Shown piece after piece: positions 7,906-49,055 of a stretch of DNA of 57,641 bases. The position numbers were made by a program, and so were the translations under genes. How positions within the stretch are numbered: position 1 is the first letter of the stretch; each line of letters opens with the position of its first letter. Under the pieces are notes generated by a model. That model made no database searches. It was not told the DNA's origin and saw only the letters and a list, made by a program, of their open reading frames with translations. Where the stretch lies: the NCBI GenBank assembly GCA_026390935.1, contig JAPLEZ010000106.1:1-57641 (forward strand), in the 5' to 3' direction. The stretch is from Bacteroidota bacterium. Lineage in GTDB: Bacteria; Bacteroidota; Bacteroidia; Flavobacteriales_C; GCA-002722245.

Positions 7906-8410
7906 TCAGGAAATGCCAGCTAACTAACTCTCCTCCTTTTTTCAAGGAGGAGTACCCGAAGGGGGAGGTGGTTTGGATAAATTATTTAATAAAAAATCTC
8001 TCAAAGAAATTCGAAGATCGCTGAGGAATGACATGACTCCTGCGGAAGCTATCTTTTGGAATATTATTAAAAACAATCAATTAGGTGTTAAGTTCAGAAG
8101 GCAGCACAGTATTGGGAATTTTGTTGCCGATTTTTATTGTGCTCAATTGAAATTAGTAGTTGAGGTGGATGGAGGAATGCATGAGGATATAATCAATAAG
8201 ATGAATGATGAAAGAAGAGAAGATTATTTGAATGAGTTGGGGTTAACAGTTGTGCGTTTTTTGAATGAGGAAATATATCAAAGTGAAGAAAGAGTGAAGG
8301 AGGAGTTGCAGGGAGCGGTGGATGAGTTGAAAAATCAATTGAATTTATAAATATTAACCACCTCGCCCTGCGGGCACTCCTCCTTGAAAAAAGGAGGAGA
8401 GTTAGTTAGT
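7906..8410 (+). mobile_element. Putative DUF559 element 1: endonuclease gene between terminal inverted repeats
   Basis: The left end is at 7921-7972 and the right end at 8356-8409. They are inverted copies of each other: AACCACCTC, a small hairpin, ACTCCTCCTTGAAA..., then GGAGGAGAGTTAGTTAG. Each end is itself a hairpin (CTCCTCCTT/AAGGAGGAG) plus a second small CCC/GGG hairpin whose sequence differs between the ends (ACCCGAAGGGG and GCCCTGCGGGC). A further motif, CAGGAAATGCCAGC (7907-7920), precedes the left end and recurs beside the other copies. The enclosed gene fills nearly all the space between the ends. No transposase is present. Confidence 0.65.
7973..8350 (+). CDS. DUF559 endonuclease-domain protein, copy 1
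   Basis: The 125-residue protein belongs to the DUF559 family, a Vsr-related PD-(D/E)xK nuclease fold. Visible motifs are FRRQHSIGNFVADFYC (Asp53) and LVVEVDGGMH (Glu64, Asp66), which fit the catalytic acidic residues. The start is a TTG at 7973. It is supported by alignment with copy 2, which begins with ATG and the same M-D-K, and no ATG lies nearby. The inverted repeat supplies a GGAGGT sequence a few bases before this TTG, a purine-rich leader that is rare among the neighbours. Nuclease activity is a family inference; the substrate is unknown. Confidence 0.8.
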   Translation: MDKLFNKKSLKEIRRSLRNDMTPAEAIFWNIIKNNQLGVKFRRQHSIGNFVADFYCAQLKLVVEVDGGMHEDIINKMNDERREDYLNELGLTVVRFLNEEIYQSEERVKEELQGAVDELKNQLNL

Positions 8411-9128: not shown

Positions 9129-9266
9129 GATTAATCAGCATTGTAGTGGAAAATAATACTCAAGATTTAATTGGGTTGAATTTAGTTAACATTGTTTTTC
9201 AGGAAATGCCAGCTAACTAACTCTCCTCCTTTTTTCAAGGAGGAGTACCCGAAGGGGGAGGTGGTT
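9126..9266. repeat. 141-bp duplication of 7833-7973 (MORN/TPR gene tail plus element left end)
   Basis: Read base by base, 9126-9266 matches 7833-7973 without a difference that I can see. It contains the last codons of the MORN/TPR gene (INQHCSGK and stop), its 3' flank and the left terminal repeat of element 1. It joins the hydrolase fragment at a shared CTTG, which looks like a microhomology junction. An 18-bp piece (CCGAAGGGGGAGGTGGTT) is then repeated in tandem at 9249-9266 and 9267-9284. Confidence 0.9.
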
Positions 9267-9717
9267 CCGAAGGGGGAGGTGGTTAAATTTCTTTTTTCTT
9301 TTGTAATTCAATAATTTCTATCAACTCTTCAATCACTCTCTCTTCGTTGGTGAATAGTTCAAGATTCGAAAAACGAATGACTTTTATTCGTTTTGAAAGC
9401 AAATAATTGTCTCTTGTTTCATCATACATCATCGAACTTATTTCATTGTGTATTCCACCGTCCATTTCAATTGCTATACGTAGTTCCGGACAATAGAAAT
9501 CGGCTACGTAATTTCCAATGCTATGTTGTCTTCTGAACTTAACACCCAGTTGCTTGTTTTTAATTAAATTCCAAAGCATTGCTTCTGCGGAAGTCATATT
9601 ATTCCGTAAGGATAGCCTTATGTTTTTTAAGTATGATTTATTATGAATTTTATCCATTTTATATTAATTAACCACCTCGCCCTGCGGGCACTCCTCCTTG
9701 AAAAAAGGAGGAGAGTT
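9199..9717 (-). mobile_element. Putative DUF559 element 2, gene in opposite orientation to its ends
   Basis: The left end (about 9218-9284) and the right end (9670-9717) are nearly identical to those of element 1, including the same two small hairpins (ACCCGAAGGGG left, GCCCTGCGGGC right). The enclosed gene runs on the minus strand, so the end that lies upstream of the gene in element 1 lies downstream here. The outer GTTAGTTAG of the right end is missing, and the left end carries an extra 18-bp tandem unit. The genes of the two elements differ at almost half of their residues although the ends are almost the same. Confidence 0.65.
9283..9657 (-). CDS. DUF559 endonuclease-domain protein, copy 2
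   Basis: The 124-residue protein is of the same family and length as copy 1, starting at ATG 9657 with M-D-K. It keeps FRRQHSIGNYVADFYC and IAIEMDGGIH, so the predicted metal-binding acidic residues are present and the gene looks intact. By eye a little over half of its residues equal those of copy 1. The stop codon (9283-9285) overlaps the second tandem unit of the left terminal repeat. Function beyond a predicted nuclease fold cannot be read from the sequence. Confidence 0.8.
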   Translation of the reverse strand: MDKIHNKSYLKNIRLSLRNNMTSAEAMLWNLIKNKQLGVKFRRQHSIGNYVADFYCPELRIAIEMDGGIHNEISSMMYDETRDNYLLSKRIKVIRFSNLELFTNEERVIEELIEIIELQKKKEI

Positions 9718-14934: not shown

Positions 14935-14988
14935 GGAAGCTGAAAGCTTCAAGAAAAAATTCCGCTAAGATGGAAATCTTAGCGGAGG
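14935..14988. repeat. Twin-hairpin repeat (GAAGCTGAAAGCTTC + CCGCTAAG)
   Basis: The first hairpin is GAAGCTGAAAGCTTC at 14936-14950 and the second is CCGCTAAG/CTTAGCGG at 14964-14987, with AAGAAAA between them. The same two-part unit recurs at 48906-48956 with a C-to-T change compensated on the other arm. The first hairpin alone recurs near 35260-35275. It lies between two convergent genes and might act as a bidirectional transcript end. Confidence 0.75.
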
Positions 14989-24003: not shown

Positions 24004-24033
24004 TGGAGAGTAGAAATACTCTCCATTTTTTTT
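24004..24033 (+). terminator. Intrinsic terminator of dnaK
   Basis: The stem TGGAGAGTA/TACTCTCCA (24004-24012 and 24017-24025) closes a GAAA loop and is followed by eight T. It lies 45 bp after the dnaK stop. Confidence 0.9.
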
Positions 24034-24065
24034 GTCTGAACCTTGATTCACTTGATGAAAGGATT
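24034..24065. repeat. Single arm of the GTCTGAACCTTGATTCACTT repeat
   Basis: This is the same 32-bp arm as at 125-156 with one change (GATGAAAGG for GATTAAAGG). It begins directly after the T-run of the dnaK terminator. No facing arm lies nearby, so this copy looks like half of an inverted repeat. A weak match to the ATTTCAGATTTT repeat follows at about 24079. Confidence 0.75.
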
Positions 24066-24142
24066 GATGAGGATGTAATTTCAGATTTTTAATCATCAGT
24101 CATTGGAAACCTTGCGCATCATATACCAAGGACACACTTTCC

Positions 24143-24253
24143 CTCGCGCGCGTCTGTGACGCGTGCGGATTTATCTTTAACAATTGTATTGTTTCTAATT
24201 CTTGGCATTTCAAATGCCTTAATAAATCCGCACGCGTCACAGACGCGCGCGAG
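24143..24253. repeat. GC-rich 111-bp palindromic repeat, copy A
   Basis: The ends CTCGCGCGCGTCTGTGACGC and its near-complement enclose GTGCGGATTTAT...ATAAATCCGCAC. In the middle are TTAACAATTGTATTGTTTCTA and the hairpin GGCATTTCAAATGCC. The whole block pairs with itself. It recurs with the centre inverted at 26220-26331 and in shorter form at 48965-49047. The ends are far richer in GC than the surrounding DNA, which suggests an imported or mobile palindrome. Confidence 0.85.
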
Positions 24254-24260
24254 TGTGAAA

Positions 24261-24290
24261 AAAGGAGAGTAGCAATACTCTCCTTTTTTA
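24261..24290 (+). terminator. Second GGAGAGTA hairpin with T-run
   Basis: The stem AAAGGAGAGTA/TACTCTCCTTT (24261-24271 and 24276-24286) with a GCAA loop and T-rich tail repeats the dnaK terminator hairpin. It is again followed by TTTGTCTGAACC. The terminator and the repeat arm seem to have been copied together. No plus-strand gene lies between the two hairpins. Confidence 0.7.
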
Positions 24291-24293
24291 TTT

Positions 24294-24383
24294 GTCTGAA
24301 CCTTGATGCACTTGATTAAAGGATCAAATGATTCCAGGGTAATTATCCTTTAATCCTTTCATCAAGTGAATCAAGGTTCAGAC
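24294..24383. repeat. Inverted repeat of the GTCTGAACCTTGATTCACTT family
   Basis: The arms are 24294-24325 and 24352-24383, with a few mismatches between them (GATGCACTT versus GATTCACTT). The right arm ends 3 bp before the stop codon of the minus-strand gene at 24387, as the copy at 192-223 abuts a stop codon. It would fold into a long hairpin at that gene's 3' end. Confidence 0.85.
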
Positions 24384-24386
24384 AAT

Positions 24387-25418
24387 TTACAACTTCATCA
24401 TCTCTTCCAACACCTCCCGCAAATCAATTTTAATTTCATGTAAATCGTAACTGGAAGGTTTGTTTTTCGCAAAAATGATAAGGTAGTCTTCTGTCACCTG
24501 AATATTTTCCATGTAGCGCACATCAGGATATTTGCTTAGTAAAAATTGACGGTTCAACTCTACTATCTTTCCTCTTTTCCAATCAACAATAAATAAATTG
24601 TTTTGAATGGCGGGGTAGGGTTGGTTGAGTACAATGATATAGTCGTGGTAAGTTTTTACATCAATGATGCTTTCCCATTCTAGTTTTTGAATGTTGTTGT
24701 ACAAAGCGCCGTCGCTCACAAATACCCAGGAATACAAAGAATCTTTTTTAATGTAAATGCCGTGAGCCGATTGAAAGAGTTGAAAGTTTTTTGCACTGTC
24801 TAATCTTATGGGATAAACCGCATTCACATCATTTCTGTCTAATGAAATTGCTGAAGTGTGATATTTCCCTAAATATGTGACGTAAGCATTTAGGTTGGTG
24901 TCTTTCACATGATGCGCATCATATAGTCCTTTTAATAATAGGGTGTCGGAAATTAAGAGTCGGTAATTTTTTGGTAGTCGCGGTTTTTGTTTCACCCATG
25001 TTGGCTGAAAGGTGCTGTAACTGCTGAAGTATTTATTGGTCAGTGTTGTTTTGGTAATGTAATTGTCGAGTAACCACAACATGGACAGTTCTGCTTTATT
25101 AGTTGTTGGAATGGAAAACATCAATGAATCAATTTTAGGCAAAGCTTTTTCTCCGGCGGGATTCATGAAGTAAGCCGGAATAGGAGTAACCTTAATCAAA
25201 CTGTGTTTTGTTTCTTGTCGCTGAAAAGGAAGTCGGTATTGCACTTTAGTCGCTCCATCTGTATAGCTTGCATAATCAAGCATTCCTATAAAGTAAGTAA
25301 CAATCAATTCATCGGGAGTTCCATCTTCATTGAAATCAAAAGCATATTTTTTGGTGTCGTCTTGCGCAATCGCAACGAAGCTGAGAAGAAAAAAAAGAAA
25401 AGTAAACTTTAAGTTCAT
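24387..25418 (-). CDS. Secreted protein of unknown function
   Basis: From ATG 25418 the product has 343 residues with a signal peptide (MNLKFTFLFFLLSFVAIAQ). An EF-hand/VCBS-like loop, FDFNEDGTPDELIV, follows at about 27-40 and may bind calcium. The rest alternates short strands and polar loops (VQYRLPFQR, YRLLISDTLLL, YHDYIIVLNQPYP, NLFIVDWKRGKIVELNRQF), which hints at a propeller-like fold. I do not recognise the family. The frame is open upstream to 25589, but that part has no coding character and would bury the signal peptide. No T9SS sorting domain is visible. Confidence 0.7.
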   Translation of the reverse strand: MNLKFTFLFFLLSFVAIAQDDTKKYAFDFNEDGTPDELIVTYFIGMLDYASYTDGATKVQYRLPFQRQETKHSLIKVTPIPAYFMNPAGEKALPKIDSLMFSIPTTNKAELSMLWLLDNYITKTTLTNKYFSSYSTFQPTWVKQKPRLPKNYRLLISDTLLLKGLYDAHHVKDTNLNAYVTYLGKYHTSAISLDRNDVNAVYPIRLDSAKNFQLFQSAHGIYIKKDSLYSWVFVSDGALYNNIQKLEWESIIDVKTYHDYIIVLNQPYPAIQNNLFIVDWKRGKIVELNRQFLLSKYPDVRYMENIQVTEDYLIIFAKNKPSSYDLHEIKIDLREVLEEMMKL

Positions 25419-26205: not shown

Positions 26206-26219
26206 TTCTTTGAAATCCA

Positions 26220-26331
26220 CTCGCGCGCGTCTATGACGCGTGCGGATTTATTAAGGCATTTGAAATGCCAAGAAGTAGAAACAATACAATTGTTAAAGAT
26301 AAATCCGCACGCGTCACAGACGCGCGCGAGG
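26220..26331. repeat. GC-rich 111-bp palindromic repeat, copy B
   Basis: It has the same ends as copy A (CTCGCGCGCGTCTATGACGC with one change). The central GGCATTTGAAATGCC and ACAATACAATTG segments are in the opposite order, so the core is inverted relative to copy A. The shared ends and flipped centre fit either insertion in the other orientation or an inversion between the arms. Confidence 0.85.
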
Positions 26332-26458
26332 GAAAGCTTTGCTTCGTCAATTAAATTATGAAGCGAAGCCACCACATAAATAGATTTCGCGCCTGAAAAG
26401 TCGTGAGTGCGGAGTAAACGTCTTGCTGAATAAGCATTTTAGCTTTCCTTAAAGTTCC

Positions 26459-26486: not shown

Positions 26487-26559
26487 ACAGAGTTGTGTTT
26501 GCAAGAAAATCCATTGATCGTTTCATCAAGTGAATCATGGTTCTGGCAATTTATCGCAA

Positions 26560-26594
26560 AAAAAAATGACCCGTTTTCACGAGTCATTTTTTTT
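26560..26594 (-). terminator. Terminator of the THX gene
   Basis: A-rich AAAAAAAATGAC (about 26559-26570) pairs with GTCATTTTTTTT (26583-26594). Read on the minus strand it is a hairpin ending in a T-run, 23 bp after the THX stop. The A/T symmetry would let it work in both directions. Confidence 0.8.
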
Positions 26595-26616
26595 AATCTG
26601 CGATTTCTCGCTGAGA

Positions 26617-26901
26617 TTATTTTTTCTTAGCTGGAGCTTTTTTCGCTGGAGCTTTTTTCTCAGCAGCTTCTTTTTTAGGAGCAGCTGTTTTTTTTGCAGG
26701 AGCTTCTTTTTTAGGAGCGGCAGCAACTTTAGCAGGAGCAGCTTTTTTAGGAGCGGCAGCTTTTTTAGTTGAGTCGTCTTTTTTAGCATTTGCAGATTTC
26801 TTAGCAGCTACAGCTGTTTTAGAAGGTTTCGCTGGTCTTGAATTTCCTCTTGATCCTTTGAATCTTTTTCCTTTTGCTGTTTTTTTATCTCCTTTTCCCA
26901 T
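26617..26901 (-). CDS. 30S ribosomal protein THX with Ala/Lys-rich tail
   Basis: From ATG 26901 the 94-residue product begins MGKGDKKTAKGKRFKGSRGNSRP, the signature of the small 30S protein THX (about 25-30 residues in most species). After residue ~25 comes a tail of some 65 residues made almost wholly of Ala, Lys and Pro (PKKAAPAKVAAAPKKE...), like H1 histone tails. The next upstream gene (27065-27286) has the same kind of tail, and the sequences before and after both genes also match. THX sits in the 30S head; the tail would add positive charge for RNA or DNA contact. Confidence 0.8.
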   Translation of the reverse strand: MGKGDKKTAKGKRFKGSRGNSRPAKPSKTAVAAKKSANAKKDDSTKKAAAPKKAAPAKVAAAPKKEAPAKKTAAPKKEAAEKKAPAKKAPAKKK

Positions 26902-27011
26902 GATTAATAATTTATTTTTTATTGGTTGATGATTCAAATGTAGTTAAAATATTTTTTGTGTATGAATAAATAATCACATTCCATTTTATCACAGCGTAAC
27001 GTAAAGCACAA

Positions 27012-27046
27012 AAAAAAGGTTCATGTAAACATGAACCTTTTTTAGT
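27012..27046 (-). terminator. Terminator of the H1-like gene
   Basis: AAAAAAGGTTCATG and CATGAACCTTTTTT form a perfect 14-bp stem around TAAA (27012-27025 and 27030-27043). It lies 21 bp after the gene on the minus strand and is symmetric enough to act both ways. Confidence 0.88.
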
Positions 27047-27064
27047 TGCGATTGCTCGCTTAGA

Positions 27065-27286
27065 CTACTTTTTCTTAGCAGCCGCTTTTTTAGCCGGAGC
27101 TTTTTTAGCAGCAGCTTTTTTAGGAGCAGCTTTCTTAGCAGCTTTCTTAGGAGCAGCTTTTTTAGCAGCAGCTTTCTTAGGAGCAGCAGCTTTTTTTGGA
27201 GCAGCTTTAACAGCTTTTTTCGCAGCACCTACTTTTGTAGTTTTTTTCTTAGCTACTACTTTTTTTGTTTTTGCTTTTGTTGCCAT
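27065..27286 (-). CDS. Histone H1-like Ala/Lys-rich DNA-binding protein
   Basis: The 73-residue protein (MATKAKTKKVVAKKKTTKV...) consists almost entirely of Lys, Ala and Pro in AAPKKAA and AKKAPAKK repeats, the pattern of bacterial H1-like proteins that bind DNA by charge. It has no folded domain. It shares its upstream motif (GGTTGA..TCAAATGTA), its tail and its 3' non-coding stretch (TGCGATT.CTCGCT.AGA) with the THX gene. The two genes probably come from duplication of one transcription unit. Confidence 0.75.
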   Translation of the reverse strand: MATKAKTKKVVAKKKTTKVGAAKKAVKAAPKKAAAPKKAAAKKAAPKKAAKKAAPKKAAAKKAPAKKAAAKKK

Positions 27287-34927: not shown

Positions 34928-35272
34928 ATGCAAAAAACTAAAAAAAAGAAATTCGAAATTACGGAAGGGTTTTGCCCTTCATGTAATCGCATTTTGAATT
35001 TAGGTGAATCTTTTTTGTGTGAGATAGATAAACAATATTCCTGTAAATGTGGATGGGCTGGATATTGGATAGGGAAAAGAAAACGATCAACTGGAAAGAT
35101 GATTTATTACTATTCGGTTGAAGAATATCAGAAACACTCCGCCTCGCAAAGTTTAGCGCAGCGAACTTTGCGAAATAGCGCATCTACTTGGAAGTTTTCA
35201 ACTTCCTTTTTCTGCAAGAAAAAACTTGTTGCTTTATGTTCCCCTTGGGGGAAAGAAGCTGAAAGCTTCTAG
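34928..35272 (+). CDS. Small zinc-ribbon-like protein with a repeat-derived C-terminus
   Basis: The 114-residue product begins 7 bp after the permease stop. Residues ~13-45 contain CPSC and C.C pairs (EGFCPSCNRILNLGESFLCEID, YSCKCGWAG), a likely zinc ribbon, followed by a basic patch and YYYSVEEYQKH. From about residue 76 the frame runs through palindromic repeats (35152-35275), giving a tail unlike a folded domain (SLAQRTLRNSAS...SPWGKEAESF). The original end was probably lost when the repeats arrived. I do not recognise the family; the link to metal uptake is only its position. Confidence 0.45.
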   Translation: MQKTKKKKFEITEGFCPSCNRILNLGESFLCEIDKQYSCKCGWAGYWIGKRKRSTGKMIYYYSVEEYQKHSASQSLAQRTLRNSASTWKFSTSFFCKKKLVALCSPWGKEAESF

Positions 35273-35275: not shown

Positions 35276-35309
35276 TATTCACGAAATCCTCCTTCCCCTC
35301 GCACATTCA

Positions 35310-36066
35310 ACGCACTCCTCCTTTTCCAAAGGAGGAAGTAAGTTAGCTGGCATTTCCTGAAGATTGTTTTGTAGAAGACTATATTGAATGGATGAGGTAG
35401 CACTTCTCCCTTTGAAAAAAGGGAGAGCGCGGAGGCATTAATGTGTGATGGCAAGAGGGATTTTTTTTATCTTTATCCCGCCAAACTAAACATTTTACTC
35501 AGTGAAAGTCCATTATAAAAACTACCTCAATCGCTATGCGAAGAATTTGAGGAATGCTTCTACTTATTCAGAAATTTTATTGTGGAATGAGTTAAAACAA
35601 AAACAAATTTTGAATGTGCAATTCAATCGTCAAAGACCCATTGGTAATTATATCGCTGATTTTTATTGTGCTAAAGCAAAGTTGATTATTGAATTGGATG
35701 GAATTACGCATCATAGCGAAGAACAATATAATTTGGATATGATCAGACAAGCGGAATTAGAAAATATGGGATATAAAGTTTTGAGATTTCATGATGACGA
35801 GGTAATGAATGATAGACAAAATGTATTGAGGACAATTGAGATAGAGTTGGAAAAACGATTGGGATGAAATCCCTCTTGCCGTCACACAATTCCATCGCAC
35901 AAAGACCGGAAGTCCCTTCCTCCTCTTAATATCAAATCTTTTTCAAAGGGAGAAGCCCATACTCATCCATTTTCAAATTATGTGTTTCAGGAAATGCCAG
36001 CTAACTTACTTCTCCCTTTGAAAAAGGGAGAGTGCGAAGGATTCTTTGCGAGAACAAGAGGGATTT
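35310..36066 (+). mobile_element. Putative DUF559 element 3 with nested repeats
   Basis: The gene lies between TGTGTGATGGCAAGAGGGATTT (35442-35463, one base differs on the other side) and its inverted copy at 35867-35888, so this pair alone encloses the coding frame. Further out, ACTTCTCCCTTTGAAAAA...GGGAGAG occurs at 35402-35427 and again in the same direction at 36008-36033. The motif CAGGAAATGCCAGCTAAC of elements 1 and 2 occurs at about 35989-36005 and, inverted, at 35340-35358. CTCCTCCTTTT...AAGGAGGA hairpins (about 35314-35336) complete the set. The layout is related to elements 1 and 2 but has diverged. Confidence 0.55.
35502..35867 (+). CDS. DUF559 endonuclease-domain protein, copy 3
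   Basis: The 121-residue protein is of the same family but a different branch from copies 1 and 2: FNRQRPIGNYIADFYC and LIIELDGITHHSEEQYNLD carry the same acidic pattern. The start is GTG at 35502; no ATG lies near and the family needs this N-terminus (KNYLNRYAKNLRNASTYSEILLWNELK). The last base of its stop codon lies inside the inner inverted repeat. It looks intact. Substrate and role are unknown. Confidence 0.8.
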   Translation: MKVHYKNYLNRYAKNLRNASTYSEILLWNELKQKQILNVQFNRQRPIGNYIADFYCAKAKLIIELDGITHHSEEQYNLDMIRQAELENMGYKVLRFHDDEVMNDRQNVLRTIEIELEKRLG

Positions 36067-48768: not shown

Positions 48769-48956
48769 TTTCAGATTTTCAATCATTACTGTTCTGAACA
48801 TCAATGATTGAAAATCTGAAATTAAACGCTCTCCGCGAAGTTTAGCGCTAGCGTAACTTCGCGGAATTTTTTCTTGAGGCTTTCAGCCTCTTTTTTGTTT
48901 TTTTAGGAAGCTGAAAGCTTCAAGAAAAGATTCCGTTAAGTTGAAAACTTAACGGA
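48769..48956. repeat. Array of five unlike hairpins
   Basis: The hairpins are: an inverted pair TTTCAGATTTTCAATCAT (48769-48786 and 48804-48821); TCCGCGAAGTT..AACTTCGCGGA (48832-48865); GAGGCTTTCAGCCTC (48876-48890); GAAGCTGAAAGCTTC (48907-48921); and TCCGTTAAGTT..AACTTAACGGA (48932-48956). All but one have partners elsewhere in the window (26459, 35155, 14935). The Fic-argS gap (48729-49055) holds no gene. Confidence 0.8.
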
Positions 48957-48964
48957 GCGGGTGG

Positions 48965-49047
48965 CTCGCGCGCGATTTTATCGCGTGCGGATTTATAGAG
49001 GCATTTAAAATGCCAAGATAAATGGGCACGCGTTACAAACGCGCGCC
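48965..49047. repeat. GC-rich palindromic repeat, short copy C
   Basis: The ends CTCGCGCGCGATTTTATCGC and GCACGCGTTACAAACGCGCG enclose GTGCGGATTTAT and GGCATTTAAAATGCC. It matches copies A and B but lacks about 27 bp of the centre (the ACAATTGTATTG segment) and has more mismatches, so it is an older or internally deleted copy. Confidence 0.75.
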
Positions 49048-49055
49048 TGAGAAAC

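Follow-up and report, generated by a model that had tools for sequence, protein, structure and literature searches.

Hairpin-ended DUF559 nuclease genes of a Bacteroidota genome as a candidate minimal mobile element with a possible link to the BoxC palindromes of bacteria

REP and REPIN sequences are short multicopy palindromes, frequently arranged as inverted doublets, and the rare nuclease gene that accompanies them (RAYT) is flanked by its own palindrome type; the DUF559 elements described here are organized in the same way. However, the RAYT enzyme is a Y1 HUH transposase, whereas the DUF559 enzyme is a single-domain PD-(D/E)xK nuclease of the Vsr/EDxHD type, and instead of the GTAG/CGTC foot of REPs the DUF559 tails are, by inspection, G-rich (GGTGAGGG, GGAGGTGGTT, GAGGGATTT or GGGAGATGG). 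In-frame insertion into genes also distinguishes the DUF559 elements from the REP/RAYT system. With the EDxHD/Vsr-like homing endonuclease I-Bth0305I they share the protein fold, and a further likeness to homing is a leuS position that is occupied in several families and for which congeners have gene-free alleles. In contrast to homing endonuclease genes, they lie outside introns and inteins, end in hairpins and have gene-less relatives in high copy number. The MITEs of DDE insertion sequences are similar in that terminal inverted repeats are common to gene-bearing and non-autonomous copies, but the DUF559 elements have no transposase gene and no target-site duplication was found among their gene-less units. 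In Rickettsia, the palindromic elements known as RPE are inserted in coding genes. The likeness to RPE, compared by description only, is that palindromic DNA lies in frame in housekeeping genes; the DUF559 element, however, can carry a nuclease gene.

The intrastrand triplex motif of Escherichia coli (TMECO), for which the name BoxC is also used, was treated by Holder et al. in 2015 (PMC4666352). In that study 23 copies were tabulated in E. coli K-12, the motif formed a triplex in vitro, triplex motifs were tied to genome instability in E. coli, and no mobility activities were found around the motif; earlier work cited there had detected neither promoter nor terminator activity of the E. coli motif (PMC4666352). 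BoxC/triplex palindromes, of which this is the main study, occur in hundreds of bacterial genomes.

The window, that is, the whole stretch of DNA analysed (57,641 nucleotides of contig JAPLEZ010000106.1 from a Bacteroidota bacterium, genome G000), contains three DUF559 genes (Table 1). In a profile search of the window's ORFs, genes 1, 2 and 3 matched PF04480 with E-values of 1.4e-30, 6e-29 and 4e-35, respectively, and with scores of 100–121 bits against a gathering cut-off of 20.6. An initial annotation had placed all three genes between inverted repeats. This is the case for genes 1 and 2, whose inverted arms are 48–73 bp long and 86–94% complementary (7901-7973/8356-8428 and 9219-9266/9670-9717), but gene 3 lies between two complete units of another subtype. 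The two-hairpin ends noted there were recovered by folding, the right-hand ends of elements 1 and 2 forming two adjacent hairpins each (z -3.6 and -4.4), and the segment seen beside all three genes proved to be CAGGAAATGCCAGC, which has four exact copies in the window, all adjoining DUF559 genes (7907, 9200, 35346 on the minus strand, and 35988; 0.03 expected at one mismatch). In elements 1 and 2 the tail GGAGGTGGTT faces the gene and CAGGAAATGCCAGC lies outside the left hairpin. The same annotation had reported no transposase in the window, and none was present among the ORFs scanned, which are part of the window's ORFs. No Rfam family matched in the window.

Table 1. Positions of the DUF559 genes and their hairpin-forming ends in the window
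Feature	Position	Strand	Description
Element 1 left end	7907..7973	+	CAGGAAATGCCAGC segment, 9-bp-stem hairpin CTCCTCCTT/AAGGAGGAG (7930-7952), gene-facing tail ACCCGAAGGGGGAGGTGGTT
DUF559 gene 1	7973-8350	+	TTG start, 125 aa, Vsr-type nuclease, E/D/ExD/H residues retained
Element 1 right end	8356..8410	+	Tail AACCACCTC, small hairpin GCCC/GGGC, main hairpin CTCCTCCTT/AAGGAGGAG, AGTTAGTTAG
Element 2 left end	9200..9284	+	GGTGGTT tail block present in duplicate
DUF559 gene 2	9283-9657	-	124 aa; opposite orientation to gene 1, ends near-identical
Element 2 right end	9670..9717	+	Inverted-repeat arm and hairpins
Element 3 upstream double-hairpin unit	35284..35463	+	AAATCCTCC...GAGGGATTT; of one family with the ~165-bp gene-less units at other sites of the genome
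DUF559 gene 3	35502-35867	+	121 aa
Element 3 downstream double-hairpin unit	35867..36066	+	In inverse orientation to the upstream unit

The left end of element 2, together with about 80 bp of upstream host DNA, is 99% identical to its counterpart at element 1. Because this copy of host DNA accompanies genes 1 and 2, whose proteins are 56% identical and which sit oppositely between near-identical ends, recombination at these ends probably took place here and left a scar at the repeats.

The units that flank gene 3 are each about 180–200 bp long and represent a second repeat subtype (tips AAATCC...GGATTT); the inverted arms of element 3 (51 nt, 90%) overlap the CAGGAAATGCCAGC segment. An orthologue of gene 3 with 92% protein identity occupies the syntenic locus in the congeneric genome G007. 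The congener G009 was considered as a clean empty site for gene 3 and rejected, because an RNA helicase gene occupies the locus. The fourth DUF559 gene of the genome is located on another contig and has a third repeat subtype, CCCTCTC-loop-GAGAGGG, with the tails GGGAGATGGA. The sequence AAAGACCGGAAGTCCCTTCCTCCTCTTAATATCAAATCTTT is nested within one hairpin of the type II units, both in G007 (L240) and in the window (35898-35940), and is possibly a smaller element inside the element.

For every gene, the two flanking sequences were compared for their best-scoring inverted repeat, with a threshold Smith-Waterman score of at least 16. Of 168 DUF559 loci from many phyla, 93 (55%) are flanked by repeats that reach this score, against one (0.7%) of 140 short ORFs taken from these loci as controls, relatedness being uncorrected; at this score such repeats are absent from about 45% of the 168. 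The comparison with chance in Bacteroidota that the initial annotation had proposed gave 51/101 DUF559 loci against 0/193 decoy intervals in the same loci (cross-pairs, 2.9%), in a set drawn nearly entirely from sampled Bacteroidota genomes and the window's own genus and uncorrected for relatedness. The corresponding figures are 55/78 and 1/140 in a mixed-phylum set (Proteobacteria, Chloroflexota, Cyanobacteria, Planctomycetes and others), which is a non-random sample taken from the best 80 matches to one query and is likewise uncorrected. The association between inverted repeats and DUF559 genes is general and far above chance. Most often the gene is enclosed by tails and these in turn by hairpins, with 24 loci against two of the opposite layout; this order is not uniform, since tails that point outward occur in leuS and at a small number of further loci.

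Within the genus, the type of repeat follows the clade of the nuclease. Over 12 DUF559 genes from five congeneric genomes, the similarity of the ends tracks that of the proteins (Spearman 0.63, 0/5000 permutations; phylogeny uncorrected), and co-inheritance of repeat and gene can contribute to this correlation.

Pattern searches of the window's genome revealed 25 palindromes of the first two subtypes compared with four DUF559 genes. Repeats that occur as often without the gene and never move between strains had been regarded in the initial annotation as the mark of an accidental link, yet the numerical excess is expected for a MITE- or REPIN-like system. The third subtype, that of the fourth DUF559 gene, is represented by 67 hairpins (reversed-pattern control, 0), mostly paired about 100 bp apart to form units of about 160 bp. 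From these, 21 distinct gene-less units were extracted. Their outer sequence (AAGCCCATACCCGAAA...), hairpin and inward-facing tail are shared with the locus of the fourth gene, and a short spacer takes the place of the gene; no target-site duplication was detected over the 21 units. To judge from these shared termini, the gene-less units are probably related to the locus of the fourth gene as MITEs are to an autonomous element.

Syntenic comparisons within the genus revealed gene-less units that are present in one genome and absent from another. The unit L014 is found in G000 but is missing from G007, L026 is found in G000 and G007 but is missing from G009, and L005 and L025 are found in G000 but are missing from G009. 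The clearest gene-bearing case is the leuS gene of the congener G008, which contains an in-frame DUF559 cassette of about 460 bp bounded by GGCCTCACCCC...GGGGTGAGGCC; the cassette and its repeats are missing in four congeners (G000, G006, G007 and G009). This insertion is not perfectly clean, since it replaced variable host sequence of about 20 bp. The search for empty sites suggested in the initial annotation thus yielded both gene-free leuS alleles and repeat-free sites in related genomes.

In about 20 of the 101 loci, DUF559 lies in frame within a long ORF. The in-frame hosts among those scanned are leuS (two sites), metH, recG, hsdR and methylase-type genes, and the palindromes are translated there into peptides such as SPQPSPxGRG and LPLGEDLGEGK. 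One leuS insertion site is common to copies from three families. In the tree, the leuS, metH and recG copies make up one 13-member clade (support 93/100). The nearest neighbours of the G008 leuS copy are L117, an intergenic copy from another family, and a leuS copy from a further family; the remaining DUF559 genes of its own genus are distant from it. This grouping is the trace that horizontal, site-preferring movement would be expected to leave.

The AlphaFold model of the DUF559 protein has a pLDDT of 90. Its best structure match is 3HRL, itself a DUF559 protein, followed by the homing endonuclease I-Bth0305I (E 1e-5) and, more weakly, by Vsr; a sequence profile search returned the same order (3R3P, E=1e-6). 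The Vsr-related fold stated in the initial annotation is borne out by these matches. A profile of YcjD had previously been reported to detect Vsr within the PD-(D/E)XK superfamily (PMC1189080). The residues E24, D53, E64, D66 and H70 do not vary among 28 diverse DUF559 members, so that the copies look active. The closeness of the homing-endonuclease fold, the in-frame insertions and the link to the BoxC/triplex motif are new relative to the initial annotation.

We consider that the DUF559 gene and its hairpin-plus-tail repeats constitute a minimal selfish mobile element, the scattered gene-less hairpin pairs being its non-autonomous copies, and we assign this reading a probability of roughly 70%. 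The best reading of its organization would be a division of labour like that of REP and RAYT, with a homing-type nuclease in place of the HUH transposase. A minimal mobile element of REP/RAYT-like organization had been proposed in the initial annotation; the association, the gene-less copies, the empty sites and the clade-specific repeats favour it, and overall the proposal is partly supported. As a mechanism, the nuclease would recognize the folded hairpin/tail end or the target site and nick or cut there, after which host replication and repair would fill the break with a copy of the element in the manner of homing, by which no target duplication is expected. One and the same nuclease would act in cis on the copy that encodes it and could mobilize the gene-less units in trans.

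Alternatively, DUF559 may be a homing endonuclease gene that lands in pre-existing palindromes, the repeats having spread by other means, as with insertion sequences in REPs. The closest solved relative beyond DUF559 is indeed a homing endonuclease, gene-less repeats are many, some genomes have repeats without the gene, and insertion sequences that target REPs are known (PMC1525189). However, the gene-less units have the termini and a short spacer like internal-deletion MITEs of the gene-bearing locus, the repeat type tracks the nuclease clade, and the leuS, metH and recG insertions carried their own repeats into coding DNA, in the case of leuS at a position where the relatives are repeat-free. 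We regard this alternative as unlikely.

The window's genome also contains three Y1_Tnp genes, and it might be supposed that an unlinked transposase, of the RAYT/IS200 type or the DDE type, moves the repeats, and that DUF559 is a passenger in one copy. However, two of the Y1_Tnp genes are flanked by another inverted-repeat family (CGCAAAGTTTAGCG...GAAGCTTTCAGCTTC) and the third by a short unrelated one, and the DUF559-type ends score at or near the shuffled level beside all three. RAYT as the mobilizer of the DUF559 repeats was accordingly rejected, because the Y1 genes of this genome bear a different repeat. The recurrence of the gene–repeat pairing across unrelated phyla, and the lack of a DDE-typical target-site duplication over the 21 gene-less units, also argue against an unlinked transposase, which we consider very improbable.

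Equally improbable is the explanation that small dispensable genes, DUF559 among them, accumulate by general recombination at hairpins that are ordinary terminators or instability hot spots prone to triplex formation. The association of triplex motifs with genome instability in E. coli (PMC4666352) is in its favour, and similar palindromes of Enterobacter 638 have been termed presumed terminators (PMC2869309). Against it, the other short ORFs of the same loci are so flanked in the single case among 140, the symmetric orientation of the ends and the in-frame insertions into leuS, metH and recG would not be expected, and the E. coli motif lacked promoter and terminator activity in the work cited above (PMC4666352). 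That DUF559 is a stand-alone restriction-type defence nuclease, with repeats that regulate its expression, is hardly credible: a weak profile similarity to DpdF and to a methyl-directed restriction enzyme model and the insertions within hsdR and methylase genes point that way, but PADLOC scores are low, and the leuS/metH/recG copies, the gene-less repeat populations and the homing fold better fit a selfish element.

In many phyla the DUF559 ends have the form CCCTCTCCC-loop-GGGAGAGGG-NN-GGGGTGAGGG, which is that of BoxC/PIT/TM palindromes, i.e. CCCTCTCCC-loop-GGGAGAGGG with a GG(G)GTGAGGG tail. The ends in the window are diverged variants with the same layout. The BoxC/TM motif was described without a mobility gene, whereas the repeat is linked here with a nuclease gene. 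A strict pattern for the motif, a hairpin with a mirrored purine tail (CCTCNCC..GGNGAGG..GGTGAGG), was found in 36 of 148 Bacteroidota genomes, with 241 copies (reversed control, 1). It is present in 27/62 Bacteroidota genomes with a strong DUF559 match compared with 9/85 without (p=6e-6; phylogeny uncorrected), and its presence in the nine DUF559-less genomes is possibly the result of gene loss. For 19 of the 146 copies listed, the distance to a DUF559 gene is at most 500 bp, against an expectation of 0.12. In DUF559-bearing genomes of the mixed-phylum sample, taken from the best 80 matches, the pattern occurs in 30 of 34, with up to 287 copies and none for the reversed-pattern control. In the window's genome, where the tails have diverged, the literal pattern has no exact match.

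The DUF559 gene of E. coli K-12 is ycjD, and some 170 bp separate it from copy no. 9 in the list of Holder et al. In E. coli strain KE47 an intact inverted repeat pair lies just past ycjD. E. coli strains vary in the carriage of this gene; ycjD was nonetheless rejected as a clean empty-site case, because the strains that lack it have the eef operon there. A PF04480 family search of an E. coli control genome gave no match although K-12 has ycjD, which may reflect this variation among strains or be a false negative. In a Neisseria gonorrhoeae record (L250, 1360-2060), a DUF559 gene whose product closely matches 3HRL lies between two TM-like hairpins in direct orientation.

The DUF559 elements look like mobile DNA of a kind that has received little notice, and some of the repeats known for a long time, among them BoxC of E. 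coli, may originate from them. More specifically, they could be bacterial transposable elements of a class of their own, in which a single Vsr/homing-type nuclease acts on hairpin-triplex ends, and which is the source of the BoxC/PIT/TM palindromes across phyla, E. coli included, with ycjD as a resident relic; we put this forward tentatively, at somewhat short of even odds. No earlier link of DUF559 or ycjD to repeats, REPs, homing or BoxC was found in the open-licence literature. With the BoxC/triplex repeats tied to a small conserved nuclease, their origin becomes directly testable in E. coli K-12 through ycjD, and in other laboratory strains. If the reading is correct, the REP/RAYT way of life has two or more evolutionary origins, based on unrelated enzymes, and the odd in-frame peptides (SPQPSPxGRG, LPLGExLGEG) of bacterial leuS, metH and recG would be explained.

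The window also harbours other repeats. A second palindromic family, GCAAAGTTTAGCG / GAAGCTGAAAGCTTC, is located at 14936-14969, 35134-35270 and 48857-48890; since it flanks RAYT-type Y1_Tnp genes elsewhere in the genome (L150 and L151), a classical REP/RAYT-like system coexists with the DUF559 elements. Two 119-bp inverted repeats (24137-24255 and 26218-26336), 98% complementary and 1.96 kb apart, contain the hairpins CTCGCGCGCGTC and have relatives at 48965-49049. An inverted-repeat family, TTGTCTGAACCTTGATTCACTTGATTAAAGG, is paired with short spacers at 117-229, 24026-24392 and 26509-26553. Finally, long runs of imperfect 15–18 bp repeats (TTTCTTAGCAGCAGC...) extend over 26590-27283 and are probably alanine/lysine-rich coding sequence.
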